Shown here: positions 11,937-23,042 of the stretch, one piece after another
Layout of the letters: each line of letters begins with the position of its first letter
Numbering within the stretch: position 1 is the stretch's first letter
Assembly: GCF_000190755.2 (NCBI RefSeq)
Contig: NZ_JH109152.1
Span: forward strand, 1,590,167 to 1,654,166
Direction of reading: 5' to 3'
Length of the DNA: 64,000 nt
Source of the DNA: Methylobacter tundripaludum SV96
Lineage (GTDB): Bacteria > Pseudomonadota > Gammaproteobacteria > Methylococcales > Methylomonadaceae
Position numbers and translations under genes: made by a program
The notes under the pieces: generated by a model
What the model was told of the DNA's origin: nothing
Databases searched by the model: none
What the model saw: only the letters and a program-made list of their open reading frames with translations

Positions 11937-12896
11937 TCATGACCGGCGGCGATCGATCAACACATCGCCGTTTTTGCCGCGCTTAATATCAACCGGTAAA
12001 ACCGCTTCCAGGGTGGAAAGAAAACGCTCAAGATCGTTATTGTCGAAAACCCCGCCAAGCGTCAAACCGTTCAGGGACGGGTCGACAAGACGGACATGCA
12101 CCGGATGATAACGCTCCAGCTCCCTGGCCACTTCCGACAACAGCGTATTGCGAAAAATCAGCTTGCGGTTTCGCCAAACGGCAAAGGTTTTGACATCGGC
12201 GGCTGCGGGTTCGGAAAGGACGGTGGCGGCATTGTAGGTCATCATCCGCCCGGCCTCGGTTTGGCGTTGCTCGCCTGTCGCCGGTAAACGAAGATCAATC
12301 GCGCCTTCCAATACCGAAATCCGGTTTGCCGACGGGCCGATTGCGACATCGAAGCGGGTGCCGATGTCGCGAAGCTTGCCGCCTCCGGCCGATACTTCAA
12401 AAGGACGCCACTTGCCGGGAGCCACACTGAACAAGGCTTCGCCGCGCACCAACTCCAGCGACCGGCCTAGCCAACTGTAATGAACGGCAAGCTCGGTATC
12501 CGAGTTAAGTTCAACCAGCGAACCGTCGGCCAGAGTTATTTGCCGCAACTCGCCTTTTGCGGTCTGAAACACGCTGTCGTCGACTAAAGGCCAACCTTCC
12601 TTGATGCCGAGCCCGACGGCAAACAGCAGACTAGCGGCGCTAGCCAACATCAAAGGGCGGTACAACAATCGCAAGCGACTTGTTTTTTTACGCGCGATGG
12701 ACAATTCGGCCTGCGGACAAGGCAATCCTCCCCAAGCGCGCTCTACTTGCTCATAGATACGGCGGTGCCTAGGATCGGCGGCAAGCCACTGCTCAAATCT
12801 CTGCCGCTCGGCAACGGCAAAAGCCCCGGACTGCTTGCGCACCAACCAGTCAATGGCCTGCTGCCGGACGGTGCTGGAATGAGGTTGTTCTATCAT
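11937..12896 (-). CDS. FecR-family anti-sigma / sigma regulator
   Basis: A 319-residue inner-membrane regulator: an N-terminal DUF4880-type domain (about residues 11-55; AIDWLVRKQSGAF, FEQWLAADPRHRRIYEQVERAW), one membrane span (about 80-97), a periplasmic FecR domain (about 110-205; ELRQITLADGSLVELNSDTEL, LVRGEALFSVA, FDVAI) and a C-terminal DUF4974/STN-like domain (about 240-310). Such proteins pass a signal from a TonB receptor carrying an STN domain to an ECF sigma factor. Both partners are here: the sigma gene just upstream and an STN receptor at 20421-22742. Specific inducer unknown. Confidence 0.9.
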   Translation of the reverse strand: MIEQPHSSTVRQQAIDWLVRKQSGAFAVAERQRFEQWLAADPRHRRIYEQVERAWGGLPCPQAELSIARKKTSRLRLLYRPLMLASAASLLFAVGLGIKEGWPLVDDSVFQTAKGELRQITLADGSLVELNSDTELAVHYSWLGRSLELVRGEALFSVAPGKWRPFEVSAGGGKLRDIGTRFDVAIGPSANRISVLEGAIDLRLPATGEQRQTEAGRMMTYNAATVLSEPAAADVKTFAVWRNRKLIFRNTLLSEVARELERYHPVHVRLVDPSLNGLTLGGVFDNNDLERFLSTLEAVLPVDIKRGKNGDVLIDRRRS

Positions 12897-12937
12897 AAAT
12901 TGTCATTATTATTCGATAAGTCCACATAATACTTGCC

Positions 12938-12973
12938 GGGAACCGTTTAAAAAACTTTATAACGGCGGTTCCC
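12938..12973. other. Hairpin between sigma factor and fecR-like gene
   Basis: GGGAACCG at 12938-12945 pairs perfectly with CGGTTCCC at 12966-12973 around a 20-nt AT-rich loop. It lies in the 152-bp gap between the sigma gene stop and the fecR-like start. It may tune read-through into fecR; no T-run follows on the transcribed strand. Confidence 0.4.
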
Positions 12974-13048
12974 CGACGCTTTCAAGAAACAACGGTTATT
13001 TTGTCAGGTTCTTGATGCCAGGCACAAGCGCCATAAATCGCCTAACCA

Positions 13049-13552
13049 TTAAAACTCAAGACAGCTCAGGCAATGATCGAAGGCTTTAGCGATATAACGT
13101 TGTACTGTCTTGTCGGAAATCCCCATGAATTGAGCGATTTCCATATGCGACAGGCCGTCGAAACGATTCAGCAGGAATGCCTGACGGTGATCCGCAGGCA
13201 ATTGCGCCAGCGCATCGCGAAATTTTTTCAACCGCTCCGTCCCGCACAAACTGTCCTCCGGTCCCAGTAGACTGGTAATCGTCCTGTCTTCAATCTCTTC
13301 ATAATTGTCGCATTGGCGGTAACTTTGTTTGCGGACATGGTCGACGACCAGATTGGTGGCGATCCTGAATAAAAAGGCGCGAGGCTTGATAATGGTGGCC
13401 GACAGCGGATAGGTCAGCGCACGCAAATAAACTTCCTGAACCAGATCGTCGGCGTCCGGTTCGCCCACCTTTCGGCAAAAAAATACCAGCAGATCGGATG
13501 AGTAATGCTGAAACCAACCCTGCAAAATATTGCGGGATATTTTTTCTGTCAT
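13049..13552 (-). CDS. ECF-type RNA polymerase sigma factor, FecI-like
   Basis: A 167-residue sigma factor with region 2 (DADDLVQEVYLRAL, PRAFLFRIATNLVVDHVRKQ) and region 4 (LAQLPADHRQAFLLNRFDGLSHMEIAQFMGISDKTVQRYIAKA), the helix-turn-helix that reads the -35 element. Size and sequence fit the FecI group, which is controlled by a FecR partner encoded next door. Its likely targets are the TonB receptor and peptide operon upstream; I can only see a weak GGAAAT -35-like site before the receptor gene. Best-supported role: sensing an extracellular ligand imported by the STN receptor. Confidence 0.92.
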   Translation of the reverse strand: MTEKISRNILQGWFQHYSSDLLVFFCRKVGEPDADDLVQEVYLRALTYPLSATIIKPRAFLFRIATNLVVDHVRKQSYRQCDNYEEIEDRTITSLLGPEDSLCGTERLKKFRDALAQLPADHRQAFLLNRFDGLSHMEIAQFMGISDKTVQRYIAKAFDHCLSCLEF

Positions 13553-13727
13553 AATCGGGCGCCCTTTGTCAGCATATTATTCAAGCTAGACAAGCAGGAT
13601 GCGCGCCAACATTGCAATCCTTGCAATTCAATTGGTTATTGTTTTTGTTGAGCATTTTGTTGCGTGAAAAAACACAAAACAGGTGATATGGCCTATTTTC
13701 AGCAGCGCCAGACAGACCTCTTGCCGG

Positions 13728-14480
13728 TTACCAGAGGAAATTGCGGAACCTGCGCCTGAACGACCAGTCGGCAATTGCGAATAACAACAGCAGCACACAC
13801 ATCCCGCCGATGGCGATGCTTGCCGGATCGAGAGCGGACGGCTGGCTGCCGTAGACGATGCGCAAAGCTTCGCTGAGATAGGTGGTCGGCAGCAGCAACG
13901 CCACGATATTCCAGGGCTCGGGCAGCATCGCGTAACTGAAGAAAGTACAGCCCAGAAACATCATCGGCATCAGCAAGAAAGCGATGAAATCCTGTGCCTT
14001 GGCAGGTGTCTGCGGCAACGTGTATCCGATGCAGCCGAGCAGAGAGAAAACCGTCGCACCGTAAATCAGGCAAACCAGATCGGCAGACAACGATACCGGC
14101 ACGTAGCCCAATAGTCCGTAAATCAGCAGATTGCCGATCAGACCTGCGGCGGTTGCAGTCACCACCGTGCCGGTAATCCACGCCAGCATCAGGCTTCTGA
14201 GCGTCAACGGCGCCAGCAGCCAGCCTTCCATGCTGCGAAAATAATAGCCCCGGGTCAAGATCCCGCCGATATTGCTCAGCGCCGCGCTCATCACCAGCAT
14301 CGAGACGATGCCGGGCGCGACAACCAGCGAATAATCGCTATCCGGTAACGCCCGGCCCAGGATTTTGCCGAAAACGAGCAGGTAAATCAGCGGTTGGAAC
14401 AACATCCGGAACAGCGCAGAACGCCAGTTATCCAAAGATTCGCCCAAGGCGCGGCCGACAAACGCCCAAAAGCCGCTCAT
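13728..14480 (-). CDS. ABC-2 type transporter permease
   Basis: A 250-residue integral membrane protein with six hydrophobic segments, of the NodJ/DrrB-like ABC-2 family (FQPLIYLLVFGKILG, LRSLMLAWITGTVVTATAAGL, FLLMPMMFLGCTFFSYAMLPEPW near the C-terminal half). I start it at ATG 14480, giving an ATGA overlap with the ATPase stop; the frame extends upstream only through the ATPase gene. With the ATPase it would form an exporter. In this block the natural cargo is the modified peptide or a derivative; that is inference. Confidence 0.9.
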   Translation of the reverse strand: MSGFWAFVGRALGESLDNWRSALFRMLFQPLIYLLVFGKILGRALPDSDYSLVVAPGIVSMLVMSAALSNIGGILTRGYYFRSMEGWLLAPLTLRSLMLAWITGTVVTATAAGLIGNLLIYGLLGYVPVSLSADLVCLIYGATVFSLLGCIGYTLPQTPAKAQDFIAFLLMPMMFLGCTFFSYAMLPEPWNIVALLLPTTYLSEALRIVYGSQPSALDPASIAIGGMCVLLLLFAIADWSFRRRFRNFLW

Positions 14481-15202
14481 TGCCCGGCCTCGGAGGTCAA
14501 TGCATGGAAACGGCTTTCCAAAGATTCCTCGCCGTCCAGCTTCAACAGCCGGCCTTGATGGATTAATTCGACGCGGTCGCACAGACGCTCGGCTTCTTCA
14601 AAATGATGCGTAGACAACAGCGTCGTGCCGCCGGCCAGCGAAAAGGCGCGAATCCTGTCCCAAACCACGGCTCGAACCGACGGATCGAGCGCATTGGTCG
14701 GCTCGTCCAGAATCAACACTTTAGGTTCGGTGATAAAGGCTCTGGCAATCATCACTTTGCGTTTGTTGCCGCCGGATAACTGGTGGATCTTTTGCTGCGC
14801 GGCTTGTTCAAGCTGGAGCACCGCCAGCCATTCGTCGATGCGCCGCTTGGCTTGGCGGCGCGGAACGGAAAAATAGCTGCAATGGCGTTCCAGATTTTTG
14901 CGCACCGTCAACGGCTGATCGAGGTTGATGTCCTGAGAAACAACGCCCAGATAGCGCTTGATCTCATGAGCTTTGCTGCGACCGTCTATGCCCAGCACCG
15001 TCAAACGCCCCCGGCTGGGTTGCAGCAGTCCGCAGAGTATCTTCAGCAACGTGGTTTTGCCCGCGCCGTTCTGCCCCAGCAATCCCAGCACTTCGCCGCA
15101 AGCCACTTGCAGATTGATGCCGTCGAGGGCGAGATGGCCGTTAGGGTAGCGCTTGGTTATGTTGTCGGCATCGATGTCCCAGCTGCTCGTCGACGTTCTC
15201 AA
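14477..15202 (-). CDS. ABC transporter ATP-binding protein (exporter type)
   Basis: A 241-residue nucleotide-binding domain: Walker A GQNGAGKTT, Q-loop VVSQDINL, signature LSGGNKRKVMIARA, Walker B VLILDEPTNALDP and the switch His in LLSTHHFEEAE. It resembles the DrrA/NodI/CcmA-like group that pairs with ABC-2 permeases. ATGA-type overlaps join it to the TonB receptor gene upstream (15199-15202) and to the permease downstream, so the three are one transcription unit. Confidence 0.93.
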   Translation of the reverse strand: MRTSTSSWDIDADNITKRYPNGHLALDGINLQVACGEVLGLLGQNGAGKTTLLKILCGLLQPSRGRLTVLGIDGRSKAHEIKRYLGVVSQDINLDQPLTVRKNLERHCSYFSVPRRQAKRRIDEWLAVLQLEQAAQQKIHQLSGGNKRKVMIARAFITEPKVLILDEPTNALDPSVRAVVWDRIRAFSLAGGTTLLSTHHFEEAERLCDRVELIHQGRLLKLDGEESLESRFHALTSEAGQ

Positions 15203-17082
15203 AAATTGACTCCTATTTCGCCGCGCACGATACGGCCGGGATCACTTTGGAACAGGCTTTTTTCAAAACGGTTGTCGAGCAGGTTGTTGACCGCCAGCGT
15301 CAGGTTGACGCTGTGCTTGTCGATGCCGATTTTCTTGGTGACCAAAAAGTCCAGCGTCGTATAAGCCTTGTTAAGCCAGGCATAGCCGTTGGCGTCGCGG
15401 CCCAGATTGCGAAAATCCATGTATTGCTCCGATTCGTGATGCAGATTAAGCCGGGTTGTCAGGCCGGGAATGCCGGTGTACGTCAATACCGCATTAATCC
15501 GGTGGCGCGGCTGGAACGCCAGTTCGTTGCCGATAATCGCGCTGTTCAGACTCTCGGTGATTTTGGTCGTGGTCAAGGTGTAATTAAGCGCCAGATTCCA
15601 AGCATCCACCAGGCTCTGATTGATGCTCAATTCCAGCCCTTTCGATTCCGATGCGCCGAGATTGACGGTCTGCTTGATGTTCGGCGTACCGGAAGTCACC
15701 AGGCTTTCCATCTTGTCGGTCCAGCGGGTGTAGAACCAGGTTAATTCCGCCTTGCCGCCCTGCCAACTGGCTTCGGTGCCGAAATCCAACGTGGTCGATT
15801 GCTCGGGCTTCAATGTGGGGTTCGGCAGAACGACGTAATTAGGCCGCGTCTGCCGGAAATACAGCGTGGCCGGATCGGGCGGCATGAAGCCGGTGGCTGC
15901 CGAACTGCGCAAGGTCAGCCAGGGCAAGGTTTTCCAGGACAGCGCCAGCTTGGGATTGAAGGCTTTCTTGAACGCATCGGGCTCGCGGCTGTCCAGACCC
16001 GCATCGTAAATCGATATGCCGGAATAATCGTATTGATCGTAGCGGCCGCTGGCATCCAGATGCCAGTCGTCCCAAAAATCCAGCCCGTAGCCGCCGAACA
16101 GGCCGATCCGGTTCACCGTGCTGTCCATCGCGAATAAACGCTGGCCGTTGCTTGCCAGACGTTGCTCGATACCGGCCTGATTGACCGCGTAAACCAGCCC
16201 GGCGTTGAAATTGCGGTAATCGGCCTGCACTTCCAGGTTGACGCTGTTTTCGGTTTCGGGGCCTTGCATATACAGCGCCAAATTTTCCGTGCCGCCGACG
16301 TCGCGAAACACATCGGTACGGTTGTCTTCGTACATCAGCTTGCCGTTCAGTTTCAGCTCGCCGAAGCGCATTTCCGAGAACAATTTCGGCCGCACCGTGG
16401 TGTATTCGTTGTAATTATTGGGGCGGCCGTAATTGCGGGTCTGTTCCAGGTAGTTGAGTTCCGCGCCGACGGTCAGCCAGTCGTTGCGATAGCCGGCCTT
16501 GATGTCGCCGCCGCGCTTGGCGAACCCGCTATGCTGGGTTTGCGCCATCGACAGTAGCGGACTGTTATCGCGCTGGATCATCCAACGGTTGCTGAGGCTG
16601 TCTTCAAAGCTGGCACGAACATCAATGCCGCCGACAGCGCCTGAGCCAATGGCCCGGCTGTAATGACTGTCCAGGCTGTCGTAGCCTTGTACCAGCCCCA
16701 GCTCCCACTGCGGTTTGGCCTGCAACGTGGTGATGATGATCGCCCCGCCCAACGCGTCTGCGCCGTAGCGGTTGGAGGCGGCGCCGCGGATAATTTCGAT
16801 AGTGGCGACATCCTGCGGTTTGATTTTTTCCAGTTCAGTTACCGCGCCGCCACGCGAAAAGCCGTCGACGTATAGCGCTATCTTGGGTACGCCGCGCAAA
16901 CTCAGCGCCCCGGAGCTGTCGCCGAGACCGCCGCGCTTGCGCAACAGCTCCATCAGACTGGCCGGTTTTTCCCGCTCGATCTCCGCAGCACTGATGATTT
17001 CCCGGCTGTTATCGGCCAAGGCTGTCCCCAAGCAACATAGCAGCAGGCAAGCCCGAAACATCCGTCTAAGGATTTGGGCCAC
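15199..17082 (-). CDS. TonB-dependent outer-membrane receptor without STN domain
   Basis: A plug domain (EIISAAEIEREKPASLMELLRKRGG, LSLRGVPKIALYVDGF, IEIIRGAASNRYGADALGGAIIIT) is followed by a 22-strand-type barrel ending GRIVRGEIGVNF, with the usual C-terminal Phe. The open frame reaches 17361, but that part runs through palindromic repeats. I choose GTG 17082-17080, which has GGGAAG six bases upstream; ATG 17061 is the alternative. Either gives a signal peptide (FRACLLLCCLGTALA). It follows the beta-propeller gene after a 164-bp palindromic spacer and overlaps the ABC ATPase gene. The ligand is unknown; context suggests uptake of the system's own product or its metal or substrate complex. 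Confidence 0.9.
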   Translation of the reverse strand: MAQILRRMFRACLLLCCLGTALADNSREIISAAEIEREKPASLMELLRKRGGLGDSSGALSLRGVPKIALYVDGFSRGGAVTELEKIKPQDVATIEIIRGAASNRYGADALGGAIIITTLQAKPQWELGLVQGYDSLDSHYSRAIGSGAVGGIDVRASFEDSLSNRWMIQRDNSPLLSMAQTQHSGFAKRGGDIKAGYRNDWLTVGAELNYLEQTRNYGRPNNYNEYTTVRPKLFSEMRFGELKLNGKLMYEDNRTDVFRDVGGTENLALYMQGPETENSVNLEVQADYRNFNAGLVYAVNQAGIEQRLASNGQRLFAMDSTVNRIGLFGGYGLDFWDDWHLDASGRYDQYDYSGISIYDAGLDSREPDAFKKAFNPKLALSWKTLPWLTLRSSAATGFMPPDPATLYFRQTRPNYVVLPNPTLKPEQSTTLDFGTEASWQGGKAELTWFYTRWTDKMESLVTSGTPNIKQTVNLGASESKGLELSINQSLVDAWNLALNYTLTTTKITESLNSAIIGNELAFQPRHRINAVLTYTGIPGLTTRLNLHHESEQYMDFRNLGRDANGYAWLNKAYTTLDFLVTKKIGIDKHSVNLTLAVNNLLDNRFEKSLFQSDPGRIVRGEIGVNF

Positions 17083-17243
17083 AATAACTTCCCGAAACTT
17101 GAACTTATCGTTCCCACGCTCCGCGTGGGAATGCAGTCTGAACCGCTCTGCGGTTCGGGTTCGGGACGCCGGAGCGTCCCTCACTGGGTTCCCACGCAGA
17201 GCGTGGGAACCATAAGAGGAAGTTATTTTTTGCCAAATCCTAA
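17067..17243. repeat. Nested palindromic element filling the propeller-receptor gap
   Basis: Outer arms 17067-17092 and 17218-17243 are inverted repeats (21 of 26 pair; AGGATTTGG and AATAACTTCC shared). Between them lie four back-to-back palindromes: TTCCCACGCTCCGCGTGGGAA (17111-17131), GAACCG/CGGTTC (17140-17156), GGGACGCCGGAGCGTCCC (17163-17180) and GTTCCCACGC/GCGTGGGAAC (17188-17210). The right arm ends 3 bp from the propeller stop, and the left arm covers the receptor start. REP-like; possibly an mRNA stability or attenuation structure. Confidence 0.8.
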
Positions 17244-17246
17244 GCA

Positions 17247-18653
17247 TCAATGCTTGACCATCGTGTAATGCCGGTTCAGGTAATCGACGATCACATCGCG
17301 CTGTTCGGCCGGGATAGCGGCCTTGTTGAAATCGATCATTCGTTCCACGGTCGGCCGCCAATCGCTACGCCGGTTCGCCGCCTTATCCATCCGATACCAA
17401 CTGTGGCAAGCGGTGTGGCAATTCTGCTCGAATGCCGCCGCGCCGGGTTCATCCGGGTAACCTTTGGGATGACGTAACGGCGGAGTAGTCCCACCCGGTG
17501 CCACGGCAACAGGGGACGCTTTAGCTGAAGCTATGGTTAACGCATCCTTAGGCTTGATCACACAAGCGCTCAATCCGGCGGCCGCATTTTTCGACCAGTT
17601 GCTCGGTGTCGGCAGCGGAAAGCTCTGGATATTGCCGGTAGCCGGATCGAGCCGGAACAGCTCGTAATTGAACATCGTCGAAAACCAGACCTTGCCGTCA
17701 GCCGCAACGGTCAACGCCAACGGCGACTCCTCCTCGGCGGGGATAGGGAACTCAGTGATTTCGCCGTTGGCGGCAATCCGGCCGATTTTATTGCCGTGCC
17801 ATTCGGTAAACCACAGATTGCCTTGGCCGTCGTCGGCTAGAACCGACGGATGAGCGCCGGGAGTCGGGATGGTATAGCGCTTGAATTCCTTATCGTGCAG
17901 CAGCCAGATAGCGTCGCCCTCGGCCAGCCACAAATCGCCCTGCGCATCGACATGCAGGCGGGTAATGATTCGGCCTATCTCGGACGGAAGAGTAATGCGC
18001 TCGAAACGCTGATCGCGGAACGCATACAGCGCGGCCTGCTTTTCATCGTCCTGGGTCAGCGACACCCAGCCCTGCCCGTTGTTGGCAAACGCCACGTTGG
18101 GTGCAACGGCGCGCGTCACTTCCAGAGGAAAAATCTGCTTCGAAGCATCCGGGCTGATTTTCACCAGCTGCATAGCGCCTTCCTGGCCGCAGCACGGCCC
18201 GGCCAATATCCACAGATTGCCCTCGCCGTCGATAGGCAAGACGAAACGGCCAAAGCTGCGGCCGGGCAGCTCGACCTCGGTAAACAGGCGGTCGCTACGC
18301 GAAAAACGGACAACCTTGTCCGAATTGAAGATCAGCGACCAAACCAGGCCGCGTTTATCGTCCAGCGCCAAGCCGTTGAAACCGAAATCGAATTTGTAGC
18401 TAAAGCCGTCTTGGTTATTCCGGTTCAATACCGCCGAATTGGCCTGGGTGGTGGGCAAATATTCCTCGAAACGACCGCTGTTCGGCTCAAGCCGGCCCAG
18501 CCGGACATCCTCATAATGGGCAACCCAGATATTGCCGTCCTTATCCTCGGCGATACTGTCCGCGCCATAGACCGGCCCGCAGGCGGCGGCGAAACAGTTT
18601 TGCGTCAATACTGCCAGCAGAGCGGCCGACAGCCAATAAAGTATCTTTTTCAT
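17247..18653 (-). CDS. Secreted beta-propeller (Vgb/streptogramin-lyase-like) with a C-terminal cytochrome-like tail
   Basis: A 468-residue protein with a clear signal peptide (LLAVLTQNCFAAA). Residues about 25-360 hold repeated Vgb/NHL-like propeller blades (DGNIWVAHYEDVRLGRL, QGDLWLAEGDAIWLL, GNLWFTEWHGNKIGRI, DGKVWFSTMFNYELFRL). The last about 75 residues contain EQNCHTACHSW, then DWRPTVERM and VIVDYLNRHY, the layout of small c-type heme domains in quinohemoprotein amine dehydrogenases. The putative heme site is CX3CH instead of CX2CH. Exact function unknown; in this block it is likely a periplasmic redox or binding partner. It starts 15 bp after the radical SAM gene stop. Confidence 0.82.
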   Translation of the reverse strand: MKKILYWLSAALLAVLTQNCFAAACGPVYGADSIAEDKDGNIWVAHYEDVRLGRLEPNSGRFEEYLPTTQANSAVLNRNNQDGFSYKFDFGFNGLALDDKRGLVWSLIFNSDKVVRFSRSDRLFTEVELPGRSFGRFVLPIDGEGNLWILAGPCCGQEGAMQLVKISPDASKQIFPLEVTRAVAPNVAFANNGQGWVSLTQDDEKQAALYAFRDQRFERITLPSEIGRIITRLHVDAQGDLWLAEGDAIWLLHDKEFKRYTIPTPGAHPSVLADDGQGNLWFTEWHGNKIGRIAANGEITEFPIPAEEESPLALTVAADGKVWFSTMFNYELFRLDPATGNIQSFPLPTPSNWSKNAAAGLSACVIKPKDALTIASAKASPVAVAPGGTTPPLRHPKGYPDEPGAAAFEQNCHTACHSWYRMDKAANRRSDWRPTVERMIDFNKAAIPAEQRDVIVDYLNRHYTMVKH

Positions 18654-18668
18654 AATAGAGCCCCTTGC

Positions 18669-20060
18669 TCAGTGAAAGTAGCTGGTAACATTATCGACAA
18701 ACCGGGTTTTTCTGGCCGGATCGGCCATGATCTCGGCAAACTCGCTCAACAGGCGGTCGTAAACCGTTTTTTTCAGGTGGCAATAGCGGGCGGGCGGCTT
18801 GAACACGTCGCCTTCGCGCAAATGGGAGATCACATAGCAGCTGCCGCCGCATAGCTGCTTCGCCCAGCAACCGCTGCAATGCGGGTTTTTATCGACCGAA
18901 GTTTCCTTGAACGAGCGGCAAAGTTCGCTGTAATTGGCGTTGAGCGGCTGGTCGTCGTTGACGTTGCCGACGCAAAACTCCTGGTAGCCGACAAAGCGGT
19001 GGCAGGGATATAGCTCGCCGTCGGCGGCGACCGCCAGCACGGTTTGTCCTGCGTTGCAGGGCCGCGGCCGGTATTGGCGGCCGAACAGCAACTTGCACAG
19101 TTCGCTGGTGTATTCGTTGAATTGAGGGTTGGCGCTATCCGCCAGCGAACGCAAGCTTTCCGAGTTAATTTCGACGATCTCATCGACCAGCGTTTGGTGT
19201 TCATGATCGGTGAAGCCCAGCGCATGATTATCGTCGACATCGACGGTGCTCAAGCCGACACCGCCTTTGCCGGCCAGTTCGGAATTATGGCTATAGATTT
19301 CTTTTAACCGGCCGAAGCTGTTTTTGGTCATGATGGTGCGGATGGTATAACGCGAGCCTTGTTTCTGGAGATCGCCGATAGTGCGCACGGTCTTGTCGTA
19401 CGCCGAGAAATTGCCGCATGCAGGCCGTTGCGCATCGTTAATGTCCTTGGGACCGTCGAGGCTGACGGTCAGGGTATCGATGTTTTTGCTAACAAAATCG
19501 GCAATTTTGCTGCTCCAGACAGTGCCGTTGGTGGTCATGTTAAACACCGTGCGGATGCCGAGCGGTTCGGTCTTGGCCCGGACGCGATCGATGATTTTTT
19601 GGATCAGCGGCAGGTTAAGCAAGGGCTCGCCGCCGAAAAAATTGATCAGGTAACCGGGGTTCTGATCGGTAATGAATTTATCGATAAAATTGTCGGCAGT
19701 GCGTTCGTCCATAATCATTTTGCCTTTGCGATATTCGCCGCCGCCGTCGCCGTAGCAATAGCTGCAAGCCAAGTTGCATTCCTGGCTGACGAACAAATAA
19801 AAACCGGTCAACCGGCTGCTCTCGCCTAACAGGTTGGTTCTTGAGTCGGGCTCGTCCGGTAACGCCGCCTGCAAAGCCAGCGCAATGCGTTCGCGTTCCA
19901 TCGGCGGCAGCGCGTACCAGGATTGTTCGTCTTTTTCCAACGACAACACGGTCGCGGCAATGTCGGGCGACAGCTCGAAAAACTTGGCAGACGGGCCATG
20001 GAAGCCGACAGGACCGATCCGTGTGCCTAATACATGAAATTCCTTCAGTAATTTTTCCAT
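18669..20060 (-). CDS. Radical SAM/SPASM peptide maturase
   Basis: A 463-residue enzyme started at ATG 20060, with GGAG 9 bases upstream; the longer frame runs into the peptide gene in another frame. N-terminal residues 1-100 may form a peptide-recognition domain. The radical SAM motif is CNLACSYC (CX3CX2C), followed by NFFGGEPLLN and MTTNGT. The C-terminal SPASM region has many cysteines for auxiliary clusters (PCNAGQTVLAVAADGELYPC, CSGCWAKQLCGGSCY, YCHLKK), like SCIFF, QhpD and anaerobic sulfatase maturases. Such enzymes crosslink Cys or other side chains in short peptides. The 35-codon Cys-rich gene 62 bp upstream is the obvious substrate. Confidence 0.93.
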   Translation of the reverse strand: MEKLLKEFHVLGTRIGPVGFHGPSAKFFELSPDIAATVLSLEKDEQSWYALPPMERERIALALQAALPDEPDSRTNLLGESSRLTGFYLFVSQECNLACSYCYGDGGGEYRKGKMIMDERTADNFIDKFITDQNPGYLINFFGGEPLLNLPLIQKIIDRVRAKTEPLGIRTVFNMTTNGTVWSSKIADFVSKNIDTLTVSLDGPKDINDAQRPACGNFSAYDKTVRTIGDLQKQGSRYTIRTIMTKNSFGRLKEIYSHNSELAGKGGVGLSTVDVDDNHALGFTDHEHQTLVDEIVEINSESLRSLADSANPQFNEYTSELCKLLFGRQYRPRPCNAGQTVLAVAADGELYPCHRFVGYQEFCVGNVNDDQPLNANYSELCRSFKETSVDKNPHCSGCWAKQLCGGSCYVISHLREGDVFKPPARYCHLKKTVYDRLLSEFAEIMADPARKTRFVDNVTSYFH

Positions 20061-20122
20061 CAACAAACTCCAACATAAGAGGGGATCGGGAAACCCGAAG
20101 ACTTCCCGATCGAATGGCAAGG

Positions 20123-20230
20123 TTAGTGTGCGCAATCCGTATCGCACATAGGTCCATGACAGCACATTGCCGTATGGATGCTGTTTTTGATAGCGACACT
20201 CAGATCGTCGATTTTGATTTCATTTAACAT
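20123..20230 (-). CDS. 35-residue Cys-rich peptide, probable substrate of the adjacent radical SAM maturase
   Basis: ATG 20230-20228 has GAGGT 8 bases upstream (good Shine-Dalgarno) and the frame ends with TAA at 20123. The N-terminal half (starting MLNEIKIDDL, about 20 residues) is amphipathic and leader-like. The C-terminal part is AMCCHGPMCDTDCAH, with four Cys, two His and two Asp in 15 residues. The position directly before the SPASM gene is the usual one for RiPP precursors. CDTDC recalls the Cys-Asp thioether links made by QhpD, but no known precursor family is recognised. It could also bind metal through Cys/His. Coding status rests on the ribosome site, composition and context. Confidence 0.8.
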   Translation of the reverse strand: MLNEIKIDDLSVAIKNSIHTAMCCHGPMCDTDCAH

Positions 20231-20302
20231 GGTTGATACCTCATTATTAATGCTGCCCTTAAGGGCGAAATGCGGACAGAATCCTCTTTGACGCCGTCCG
20301 CT

Positions 20303-20386
20303 GGAGCGCCGGTTATGTTGACCGACGCTCCGTTACTTCCAAACGATGAAACATTTGGAAACAAACCGATACCGTCCGGGTATCGG
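20303..20386 (-). promoter_or_regulatory. Structured leader between receptor and peptide genes, with terminator-like hairpin
   Basis: Within the 190-bp gap three hairpins can be drawn: CCGATACC/GGTATCGG (20366-20386) followed on the transcribed strand by TTTGTTT, TTCCAAA/TTTGGAA (20337-20360), and an 11-bp stem with one mismatch, GGAGCGCCGGT/ACCGACGCTCC (20303-20331). The first resembles a weak terminator after the receptor; the others could stabilise a processed peptide mRNA or attenuate read-through. No promoter for the peptide alone is obvious. Confidence 0.55.
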
Positions 20387-20420
20387 AGGCACCGGGTTAC
20401 CCCAGCGCCGCAAACAGTTT

Positions 20421-22742
20421 TTAGAACTCAAGCCCTAGTTTGATGAAACCGATCCGCGGTTCGTTATAGACGCCTTGGCCGCGAGATTCGTACTGCCGAT
20501 CGAGGATGTTGTTAATACCGGCGGTCAAATCCAGCGTCTTCTTGTTGCCGATCGGATGCCGGTAGGTGGCGTTGATGTCGGCCACGACATAAGACCCCAA
20601 GGCGTAACTAGATTGATTAAAACTGTCGCCGCTGATGAAACGCCTGCTCGCATAACGGCCTTCCAGACGGCCGCTGATACGCGAGGAGTCGAACAGCAGG
20701 CCGAAAGCCGCTTTATGTTCTGGAACATTGGGCAATTGATAACCTTCTTGCGGCAGCCCGCTGGCTGTGGCCGACAGCGGCGCTGCGGTTCGGGCAATGG
20801 TGTGGGTGTAGTTGGTAAACAGGCTGAAGCGATCGGTGATCTGCTGCGTCAACTCCAGTTCCGCACCGTAGGTATGCACCTTGGCGAGGTTTTGGGATTG
20901 AAGGATGGTTTTATTGCCGGCGCGGGTACGCGATGACAGAATATAGTCGGAAATATCGTTGAAAAAACCGGTCGCGGCGGCATGCAGACCGAACGGGGTG
21001 TCAAAATCGATACCCAGATCGTAACTGTCCGAGGTTTCCGGTTTCAGACCGGCATTGGGTTGTAATTCAACAAATGCGCTGTTCACGCCGCCGACCACGG
21101 CGCTGGGTTCGGGCGCACGGAAACCGGTGCCGATACTGCCGTGAACCGAAATATCGTCGTTGAATTTATAGCGGATGCCGCCCCTGGGATTAAAGGTTTC
21201 GAACGTGGTTTTGCTGAGCCGCTGTGTGTTGGGCGTGGCAATATTGGCGTTGATGTCGTAGTTGAACCAGTCGTAACGGCCGCCTATCGATACGAACAGC
21301 TTTTTGGAAAGCTCCAGTTCGTATTGCAGATACAAGCCGTGGTTCTGAATTTCCGCATTGCGGCGATCTGTTTCAACGCCGGTCAGGGTGGTAATGTTAC
21401 GAACCTTGGTCCAATCCTGGGCTGCGTTATAGCCGAACAGCAGGGTATGGCCTTGCGCAGGCATCCAGCGGGCCCGCACTTCTCCGGTGAGCTTCTGCGC
21501 ATCTTCGAATAAGGTCGTACTCGGCGTGATATTCGTGGTCGTCGACGGATAAAAATAATTGTCGAAGGTCAGGTCGGCGACATGGCTGCGATGGCTGACC
21601 GTGCTGGTCACATCGAAGCGGTCGGAAAAATCGTGTTTGAACTCCAGGCTGTACTGACCGTATTGGCCGTTTTGCGGCGTATTGACCCGGTCGAACGCCA
21701 GGTCGGATTCGTCCATATAATTGAACGCAAACTTCAGCTTCGATTGTTCGGACAACCGGTAGCCCAGGCGTCCGCCGAGCATGGTTTTGTCCCAGCCGCC
21801 GTTTTGCAGCGAATGCGATACCGTCCCGGTAGAGCCGGGAAAAAAGGCGGGGGCCGGTGTGCTTTTATAGCCTTCCGAACTCAGGTGTTTGACGTTGAGC
21901 TGGTAACTGAAGTCGTCCAAGGTGCCGCCCGTCGATGCGCCGCCGCCATAAGTGGGCAAGCTGTCGAAGACAAAGAACGGCCGCGTCACATTCTTTTCCT
22001 TGGGCGCTTCCTTGGTAATGACGTTGACCATGCCGCCCATCGCATTGGGGCCGTACAGCGCCGAACCGGCGCCGCGAACGACTTCGACCCGTTCGACATC
22101 GTCCCAGTCGACAGTCTGCAAGGTATTGCGGTTGCCGATACCGGTGTCCAGGAACTCCGCATATTGGCCGTTGACCAAAACCGAGGAACGGCGCGAGCCG
22201 GTGCCGCGAATATTAAGCGTCGCAATGCCGCTCGTGCCGCTACGGGCGATATCGACGCCGGCCGCCCGCGTCAGCACATCGGTGGTATCGCGGCTGTACA
22301 TGTTGGCGATCTGTTTTTCGTCGATAACCGCCGTGGTGGCGGTCACCTCCGATATAGGGCGCTCGGTTTTGGTGGCGGTCACCACGATCGTATCCAATTT
22401 ATGGACGGCGTTTTTTTTATCCTCGGCAACGTCATTGGCGCCGGCCGGTTCGACACGCTTGACCGCAACGGTATGATCGTCGGTAAACCGGTAGGCAAGC
22501 CCCGATTTATCCAGCAGGATTTTCAGCGCCTGTTGCGCCGTGTATTGCCCGGCAAGCGGCGGCGATGTTTTTCCCGACATCGCATCGGCGGCGTAGAGAA
22601 TTTGTACGCCGGTTTGTTGCTCGAACTGCTCCAGTGCGGTTGCCAACGGTTGAGAGGGAATGTCGACGCGCAGTTTCTGTTCGGCCAGTACATTCTGGCA
22701 ATAGAACAGACCGGCGATTAACGGTAAAGCGAGTTGTTTCAT
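20421..22742 (-). CDS. FecA-like TonB-dependent transducer with N-terminal STN domain
   Basis: A 773-residue receptor: signal peptide (residues 1-20), STN domain (about 22-100; LRVDIPSQPLATALEQFEQQTGVQILYA, QQALKILLDKSGLAYRF), TonB box region (DTIVVTATK), plug (about 130-250; LTRAAGVDIARSGTSGIATLNIRG, VERVEVVRGAGSALYGPNAMGGMVNVIT) and beta-barrel ending GFIKLGLEF. The STN domain is the part that contacts FecR-type regulators, so this receptor should both import and signal. The matching fecI/fecR-like pair lies at the other end of the same block. It is the first gene of the leftward block. Confidence 0.94.
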   Translation of the reverse strand: MKQLALPLIAGLFYCQNVLAEQKLRVDIPSQPLATALEQFEQQTGVQILYAADAMSGKTSPPLAGQYTAQQALKILLDKSGLAYRFTDDHTVAVKRVEPAGANDVAEDKKNAVHKLDTIVVTATKTERPISEVTATTAVIDEKQIANMYSRDTTDVLTRAAGVDIARSGTSGIATLNIRGTGSRRSSVLVNGQYAEFLDTGIGNRNTLQTVDWDDVERVEVVRGAGSALYGPNAMGGMVNVITKEAPKEKNVTRPFFVFDSLPTYGGGASTGGTLDDFSYQLNVKHLSSEGYKSTPAPAFFPGSTGTVSHSLQNGGWDKTMLGGRLGYRLSEQSKLKFAFNYMDESDLAFDRVNTPQNGQYGQYSLEFKHDFSDRFDVTSTVSHRSHVADLTFDNYFYPSTTTNITPSTTLFEDAQKLTGEVRARWMPAQGHTLLFGYNAAQDWTKVRNITTLTGVETDRRNAEIQNHGLYLQYELELSKKLFVSIGGRYDWFNYDINANIATPNTQRLSKTTFETFNPRGGIRYKFNDDISVHGSIGTGFRAPEPSAVVGGVNSAFVELQPNAGLKPETSDSYDLGIDFDTPFGLHAAATGFFNDISDYILSSRTRAGNKTILQSQNLAKVHTYGAELELTQQITDRFSLFTNYTHTIARTAAPLSATASGLPQEGYQLPNVPEHKAAFGLLFDSSRISGRLEGRYASRRFISGDSFNQSSYALGSYVVADINATYRHPIGNKKTLDLTAGINNILDRQYESRGQGVYNEPRIGFIKLGLEF

Positions 22743-23042
22743 GTTGGGGGAGTCCTTGGTAAATTTTTAATGTGACTCCCTAACGACGTTTCAGCATTTC
22801 CAAACTGGACACTATTTATTGATTTTTTTTAGTATCGATTCGGCACAGTGTTTGTGTTGGATCGCAGATGACGCTGATAATTATGATGAAATAGGATTTT
22901 CATTGAATGATCTGTGATCATCATATTCATCTGCGTCATCAGCGTTCCGTTTTTCTAACTGCTGAAGCAGTCAAAAAACCTTCAAGCTGTTGAACTTAAA
23001 AAATATCGCAGGCTCGAATGATAGTCTTTATAATCGTTCGCC
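22743..23042. other. Divergent intergenic region with a dispersed repeat
   Basis: This 300-bp gap separates the leftward receptor from rightward diaA. On the minus strand GGAAAT (22801-22796) could be a FecI-type -35, but no clear -10 follows. Positions 22859-22948 hold an imperfect inverted repeat (GCAGATGACGCTGAT... / ...ATCTGCGTCATCAGCG) of a family also seen near 29.85 kb. TATAAT at 23029-23034 lies only 8 bp before the diaA ATG, so that promoter would give an almost leaderless message. Confidence 0.5.

Follow-up and report, generated by a model that had tools for sequence, protein, structure and literature searches.

A stretch of 64,000 nucleotides of the Methylobacter tundripaludum SV96 genome (hereafter the window) contains, at positions 11937–22742, a leftward block of nine genes, all on the minus strand. 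They encode an STN-domain TonB-dependent receptor, a peptide of 35–36 codons, a radical SAM/SPASM maturase, a protein that joins a Vgb-type beta-propeller to a heme domain (the propeller-heme protein), a second TonB-dependent receptor (TBDT2), the ATPase and permease of an ABC transporter, a FecI-like sigma factor, and a FecR-like protein. Gene content across genomes supports the view that this cassette is inherited as a unit and has a sensing module and a predicted export route of its own. The best explanation for it, to which we give an even chance, is a metallophore-like cycle of Methylococcales based on a ribosomally synthesized and post-translationally modified peptide (RiPP).

Conservation of the cassette and of its precursor peptide

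An earlier note, made from the letters of this stretch, had treated these genes as a single system, and a maturase standing alone in other genomes would have counted against that view. When 311 Methylococcales genomes were searched with a four-row maturase profile (E ≤ 1e-60), six matched, and each of the six maturases is accompanied by the peptide, both receptors, FecI/FecR, and the remaining cassette genes, so that the co-occurrence of peptide, maturase, and propeller looked for in other genomes was indeed found, the complete set being present in 6 of the 311. The six are the window genome (G000), G007, G048, G090, G113, and G147, the last being Methylobacter marinus A45. In the same 311 genomes, the propeller-heme profile matches seven, all of which also hold TBDT2, and STN receptor orthologs (E ≤ 1e-130) occur in eight. 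A search of 101 genomes with the maturase sequence (E ≤ 1e-20) gave five matches, the window genome included; one of them, G009, holds a maturase relative at 28%, and no partner from the cassette appeared in the 12 kb that were fetched.

The peptide has no match to any Pfam or NCBIfam family, and it lies directly upstream of the maturase in all six genomes that hold the latter. The six peptides share the leader M-x-x-E-I-x-I-x-x-L and the core M-C-x-x-(x)-G-P-M-C-x5-H, in which MC, GPMC, and the histidine at the C-terminal end are invariant, and none of them contains Trp. They fall into two types, those with four cysteines (type I: window, G007, and G048) and those with two (type II: G090, G113, and G147). 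Between the window and G007, the closest copies, 4 of the 108 peptide nucleotides differ, all at third positions and all synonymous, and the flanks of the peptide are 85% (upstream) and 87% (downstream) identical; the peptide DNA of G090 and G113 is identical. The frame on which the earlier note had staked its case is thus conserved in relatives, and a chance open reading frame is ruled out by the six-fold conservation together with the purely synonymous differences.

In a sample of the phylum, the maturase matched one of 398 genomes, and in a sample of the class, the propeller-heme profile matched one of 369, in both cases the window genome itself. The GTDB contig collection was scanned with two short peptide patterns only, and three loci were confirmed; with a scan so limited, distant relatives may be missed. 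Among open-licence papers, judged by title or by the start of the abstract, none describing the cassette was found. The genome set used assigns to the order of the window genome a metagenome-assembled genome (MAG) whose deposited name, Methyloversatilis universalis, may be wrong.

Organization of the locus

Searches with Pfam and NCBIfam models, by which the domains of the cassette proteins were assigned, confirmed the gene set and order that had been read from the sequence (Table 1). Of the overlaps between genes, described earlier as ATGA, only that of ATPase and permease is ATGA (14477–14480); that of the second receptor and the ATPase is TTGA (15199–15202). The likely starts of the maturase (20060), of the second receptor (17061), and of the permease (14480) lie downstream of the GTG/TTG starts in the initial list of reading frames. 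All the parts of FecIRA-type cell-surface signalling are present, namely an STN receptor, a FecR with DUF4880 and FecR_C, and a FecI-like sigma factor. TBDT2 and the propeller-heme gene are separated by 185 bp (window 17062-17246) that match the spacer of the closest cassette neither in length nor in sequence and that, judged by eye, resemble a dispersed repeat.

Table 1. Features of the cassette, with positions in the window.
Feature	Position	Strand	Basis
Predicted ECF (extracytoplasmic function, FecI-type) promoter TGTCCAGTT-N14-CGTCGTTA upstream of the STN receptor	22781..22811	-	Conserved upstream of STN
STN-domain TonB-dependent receptor (signalling)	20421..22742	-	Pfam STN, Plug, TonB barrel
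Precursor peptide, 35 codons, C-terminal core MCCHGPMCDTDCAH	20123..20230	-	Conserved in 6/6 cassettes
Radical SAM/SPASM peptide maturase, CX3CX2C and 7-Cys SPASM pattern	18669..20060	-	Pfam Radical_SAM and SPASM
Vgb-type beta-propeller with C-terminal c-type heme domain	17247..18653	-	Pfam Vgb_lyase; propeller relatives 2qc5, 2z2n; six-row alignment
CX3CH heme-attachment-like motif CHTACH	17403..17420	-	CX3CH in 7/7 orthologs
Second TonB-dependent receptor (TBDT2), without STN domain	15199..17061	-	Pfam Plug and barrel
ABC transporter ATPase	14477..15202	-	ABC_tran; drrA-like, below cut-off
ABC-2 permease	13728..14480	-	ABC2_membrane
Possible operator AATAGGCCATATCACC upstream of fecI	13682..13697	-	Alignment of upstream regions
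FecI-like ECF sigma factor	13049..13552	-	Sigma70_r2 / r4_2
FecR-like anti-sigma factor / signal transducer	11937..12896	-	DUF4880, FecR, FecR_C

The maturase and the propeller-heme protein

The maturase has the features by which a radical SAM/SPASM RiPP maturase is recognized, namely the CX3CX2C motif, the SPASM cysteines, and an adjacent, conserved short precursor; the motif and a seven-Cys SPASM pattern are conserved in the four aligned orthologs. It is matched by 82 NCBIfam families, of which the best 25 all lie below their cut-offs: PapB comes first (219.4 bits, cut-off 340), followed by the nif11, QhpD (195 bits, cut-off 453), and SCIFF (181.7 bits, cut-off 425) maturases. The cut-offs of the ranthipeptide/PapB families (PapB and SCIFF) are therefore not reached, and there is a relationship to QhpD/PeaB. 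The closest solved structure is 5wgg (E 1e-46), which we take to be CteB.

The propeller-heme protein begins with what looks, by eye, like a Sec signal peptide. The Pfam Vgb_lyase model is passed, with 109 bits against a cut-off of 50, whereas the two NCBIfam Vgb lyase models give 74.5 and 75.7 bits against a cut-off of 600, so far below that membership in the streptogramin B lyases (Vgb) was rejected. The catalytic residues of Vgb are His and Glu, and the blade His positions of its PHAI and PHGI motifs are occupied here by Ser and Leu in one register, the repeats making the register ambiguous.

Regarding its C-terminal part, the heme-like tail reported in the earlier note was found again by other means. 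The CX3CH motif is present in seven of seven orthologs, and a seven-row profile of the tail retrieves quinohemoprotein amine dehydrogenase alpha (QHNDH alpha; 1jju, E 8e-6) and SorB (2blf, E 1e-4), plus one match at chance level; the SorB, QH_alpha, and Dehyd-heme_bind models match all seven members at E ≤ 1, the scores of the window member being below cut-off. Attachment of a c-type heme to this tail is predicted from the motif and from the related heme domains. Membership in QHNDH itself was rejected, given peptides without Trp, a single heme motif, and scores below cut-off.

A receiver-only locus

The seventh genome with a propeller-heme gene, G123, carries the STN receptor, propeller-heme protein, TBDT2, FecI, and FecR in about 7.4 kb, and only some 20 bp separate its STN and propeller-heme genes, where the six full cassettes hold the peptide and the maturase. 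Within the 20 kb that were fetched of this 24,974-base contig, no peptide or maturase turned up, nor any ABC match of convincing quality, and the maturase profile, which found the six other genomes, had no match in the whole assembly even at E ≤ 1e-5. Taken at face value, the locus puts the heme protein and both receptors on the side of uptake and response, and the maturase, the peptide, and probably the ABC exporter on the side of production. This suggests that the cassette may split into a production half and an uptake half, and, from this one locus, that the propeller-heme protein may belong with uptake and not with peptide maturation. In an eighth genome, G284 (a 91%-complete assembly), an STN receptor 66% identical over 417 residues is cut by the contig end, and TBDT2, the maturase, and the propeller-heme protein were not found.

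Promoter and candidate operator

The motif TGTCCASTT-N13/14-CGTCKTYA lies upstream of the STN receptor in all six cassettes and in G284, and a looser pattern found it in G123 with the variant -35 element TGTCCGAAT, so that an ECF-type promoter (TGTCC…CGTC) precedes eight of eight STN orthologs. A -10 element of CGTC is typical of FecI-like factors, and the FecI of the cassette would be the factor that reads this promoter. Over the six cassette genomes, the strict pattern finds the promoter site in each and four further sites, one each in four genomes, as compared with six sites for the reversed pattern in the same genomes, which places occurrences outside the cassette at chance level.

Upstream of fecI, A45 has a perfect 24-bp palindrome, AAAATAGGTGATATCACCTATTTT (L018 16612-16635), which is degenerate in the window genome (13682-13697) and in G048, and more so in G007; it is a possible operator for some regulator. 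Allowing up to one mismatch, the palindrome pattern has 6, 2, 8, and 9 matches in G000, G007, G048, and G147, and the reversed control has 3, 3, 0, and 2. The only exact match in the window genome is the site upstream of fecI; neither of the G007 matches is at the cassette of that genome, and a further exact site is found in G048 at C1:4361237. A metal-sensor site was sought in this region and dropped as a candidate, the palindrome naming no metal.

Mobility and mosaic structure

The cassette is conserved and mobile. In the window genome it splits yraN from gmhA; the latter was found in 25 of 31 genomes, and at 20 of the 24 gmhA loci outside the window genome yraN lies 12–425 bp away, the other four having no yraN within the fetched flank. 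Elsewhere its neighbours are lpxK with glucokinase in G007, murJ with a Fic gene in G048, a dCTP-deaminase-like gene in G147, and, in G090, an AraC-type regulator with a Ser/Thr kinase gene, a kinase of that kind being present beside the G113 copy as well. This makes five chromosomal contexts among the six genomes. The G+C content of the cassette is 55.8%, and that of its two 10-kb flanks is 49.2% and 49.8%. Gene content is constant, and gene order varies by type, being propeller–TBDT2–ABC in one and propeller–ABC–TBDT2 in the other, with FecI/FecR at different ends. Carriage on plasmids was considered and rejected: no match to the maturase in 185 plasmid records reaches 60% identity, and in no case among 38 records is as much as 80% of the propeller-heme protein covered at a single place.

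The copy in A45 is a mosaic. In small, midpoint-rooted trees (that of the maturase has five rows, the G113 copy being left out), its STN receptor, maturase, and TBDT2 cluster with those of type II, its FecR stands with the copies of the window genome and G007 (100/99 support), and its FecI falls within type I; its propeller-heme protein and ABC ATPase are closer to type I, though their branches are long. Type I FecI/FecR thus stand beside a type II peptide, maturase, and receptors. There are also remnants of another ABC pair, which is type-I-like, and the ABC permease copies enclose a transposase-like frame that is present twice, as inverted copies (L018 3583-5936 and 14404-17259). In this one mosaic, peptide, maturase, and receptors appear to travel together, as specificity partners would. 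The maturase of G113 reads as two overlapping pieces (L019 9329-10782), from a frameshift or an assembly error.

The proposed cycle and its alternatives

In the cycle that we favour, the maturase would modify the Cys/Met/His-rich C-terminus of the peptide, probably via thioether crosslinks, and the ABC-2 pump would export the product. The loaded peptide would then bind the STN receptor, the signal would pass through FecR, and the FecI so released would transcribe the cassette from the TGTCC…CGTC promoter. The peptide may re-enter by one or both receptors, after which the periplasmic propeller-heme protein would release or process the cargo by a redox step. Uptake-only loci could exist because the product would be a public good, and one such locus was seen. 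Two findings lend support to the loop of return and induction proposed in the earlier note, namely the receiver-only locus and the ECF-type promoter shared by the STN orthologs (8/8, one of them having a variant -35); the re-import in it is presumed. As for the metal, iron is possible, and copper is favoured in view of the repeated Met-Cys and the terminal His of the core and of hosts that belong to a methanotroph order. The cycle can be narrowed further, to a chalkophore of gammaproteobacterial methanotrophs, that is, a radical-SAM copper carrier unrelated to methanobactin, with two specificity types and matching receptors, release of copper by the heme-propeller after re-import, and uptake-only pirates; this narrower form is tentative, its being right in every part a good deal less probable than the cycle at large.

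The kinship of the heme domain with QHNDH alpha, and of the maturase with QhpD/PeaB, would also fit a peptide that serves as a diffusible redox cofactor of the propeller-heme protein, itself then a quinohemoprotein-like dehydrogenase, with the receptors scavenging the cofactor. Pyrroloquinoline quinone (PQQ) is a radical-SAM product of a peptide, and a propeller with a C-terminal c-heme resembles the layout of quinohemoproteins; moreover, the G123 locus has the heme protein and receptors but lacks peptide and maturase, which is what a scavenger would show, and the 28 listed PDB relatives of the STN receptor include a PQQ transporter, ranked behind the colicin I receptor. We nevertheless consider this unlikely: the six peptides offer no Trp for a cofactor of the cysteine tryptophylquinone type, the QhpD score is far below its cut-off, the core is rich in soft-metal ligands, and induction by FecI/FecR and an exporter would be unusual for a cofactor system.

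The STN receptor, FecI, FecR, and the conserved promoter are equally what a secreted pheromone with autoinduction would use, the peptide of the cell or of its neighbours being sensed by this module and the propeller-heme protein degrading the signal, and the receiver-only locus would fit an eavesdropper on that signal. This reading has, in our opinion, a similarly low probability, since no wider regulon is visible with the strict promoter pattern (4 extra sites versus 6 for the reversed control in the six genomes) and two receptors would exceed the needs of sensing. Least probable of all is a bacteriocin with receptor-based entry and a Vgb-like propeller that detoxifies the peptide, as the propeller type and the mobile, patchy occurrence of two peptide/receptor types might suggest, given that the Vgb lyase models are missed by so much (75.7 and 74.5 versus 600 bits), that Ser and Leu replace the PHAI/PHGI histidines in the one, ambiguous register, and that the retention of two receptors and of an inducing sigma factor would be surprising at an immunity locus.

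Several points weigh against the metallophore-like cycle. The crosslink chemistry, the export, the re-import, the metal, and the role of the heme protein are all things that we infer; no leader peptidase was found among the nine cassette genes by the Pfam and NCBIfam searches, and the analysis upstream of fecI identified no regulatory site that names the metal. The co-variation of peptide, maturase, and receptor types fits signalling peptides or bacteriocins too, and, with the permease copies interrupted in A45 and the maturase of G113 in two pieces, not every copy need be functional. Finally, the receiver-only locus is a single case, in a MAG of 450 contigs that is 95% complete, on a contig that ends 277 bp beyond fecR, and the search for peptide and ABC genes covered the 20 kb fetched.

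Relation to known systems

The systems that appear to work most like the cassette are those of methanobactin and of the isopeptidase-type lasso peptides, and by our comparison it belongs to neither. A methanobactin (mbn) operon likewise joins a short Cys-containing precursor, a modifying enzyme, an exporter, a TonB receptor, FecI/FecR-type regulators, and a heme protein, there MbnH, whose role is uncertain (PMC3621798, PMC9601215). The same sources describe, in Methylosinus trichosporium OB3b, the set MbnT2/MbnI2/MbnR2, in which a receptor that bears a signalling domain, and that has ECF sigma and anti-sigma partners of its own, is induced by, and imports, foreign methanobactin (PMC9601215), a precedent for the proposed loop, and, in OB3b and its relatives, isolated pairs of MbnP and MbnH close to MbnT-like receptors and homologues of MbnI/MbnR (PMC3621798). 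Such isolated pairs beside receptors and regulators are a close parallel to the receiver-only locus of G123.

Unlike methanobactin operons, the cassette has a radical SAM/SPASM maturase, a second receptor, and hosts among the Methylococcales, and a one-heme propeller takes the place of the diheme MbnH with MbnP. Neither MbnB nor MbnC was found in the cassette with Pfam and NCBIfam, MbnC not having been searched genome-wide. The model of MbnB (TIGR04159, a DUF692 enzyme) gave no match above its cut-off of 325 in any of the seven hosts, whose weak matches are of 40-75 bits, nor in 14 control genomes, a series without a positive control. The weak match that each of the seven hosts has elsewhere in its genome (in the window genome, G000:C1:2023265-2023837) is possibly another DUF692-type RiPP enzyme.

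The lasso clusters of the isopeptidase type (astexin, sphingopyxin, and rubrinodin) share with the cassette a RiPP, a TonB receptor, a sigma/anti-sigma pair, and a propeller enzyme that is hypothesised to release cargo (PMC9266682); the rubrinodin cluster is described there as comprising an ABC transporter, an isopeptidase (an enzyme class that bears a propeller), a TonB receptor, and FecI/FecR-like regulators (PMC9266682). Their isopeptidase is, however, of the prolyl-oligopeptidase type, whereas the propeller of the cassette is Vgb-type and carries a predicted heme domain, and no lasso B protease or C cyclase domain was found among the nine cassette proteins with Pfam and NCBIfam.

Among radical-SAM systems, the ranthipeptides (PapB/freyrasin and CteB/thermocellin) are linked to the cassette by PapB, its closest NCBIfam model, but the core of the cassette peptide is very short, type II has no conserved acidic partner, and a receptor and a FecI/FecR module are present. 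The QHNDH system (QhpA-D), which includes a propeller and an exporter, has a related maturase and heme domain; unlike it, the cassette has a peptide without Trp and a single CX3CH fused to a Vgb-type propeller. The Itf cluster of Bacteroides (radical SAM, YcaO, ABC/C39, and a TonB transporter) likewise pairs a radical-SAM RiPP with a TonB-dependent transporter, but its enzymes differ, and FecI/FecR and a propeller-heme protein are unmentioned in the passage on Itf (PMC11002830).

Implications

Kenney and Rosenzweig note that an mbn operon is not seen in several methanotrophs, including Methylococcus capsulatus Bath and Methylomicrobium album BG8, and that any chalkophore of theirs must be of another kind (PMC3621798). 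For a few Methylococcales, the cassette provides a concrete and compact candidate metallophore other than methanobactin; since it is rare (6/311) and was not sought by name in Bath or BG8, it offers no general answer for methanotrophs without mbn. It would add a radical-SAM peptide with a complete loop of making, export, sensing, and re-import, and the split between production and uptake would make cheating testable in methane-eating communities.

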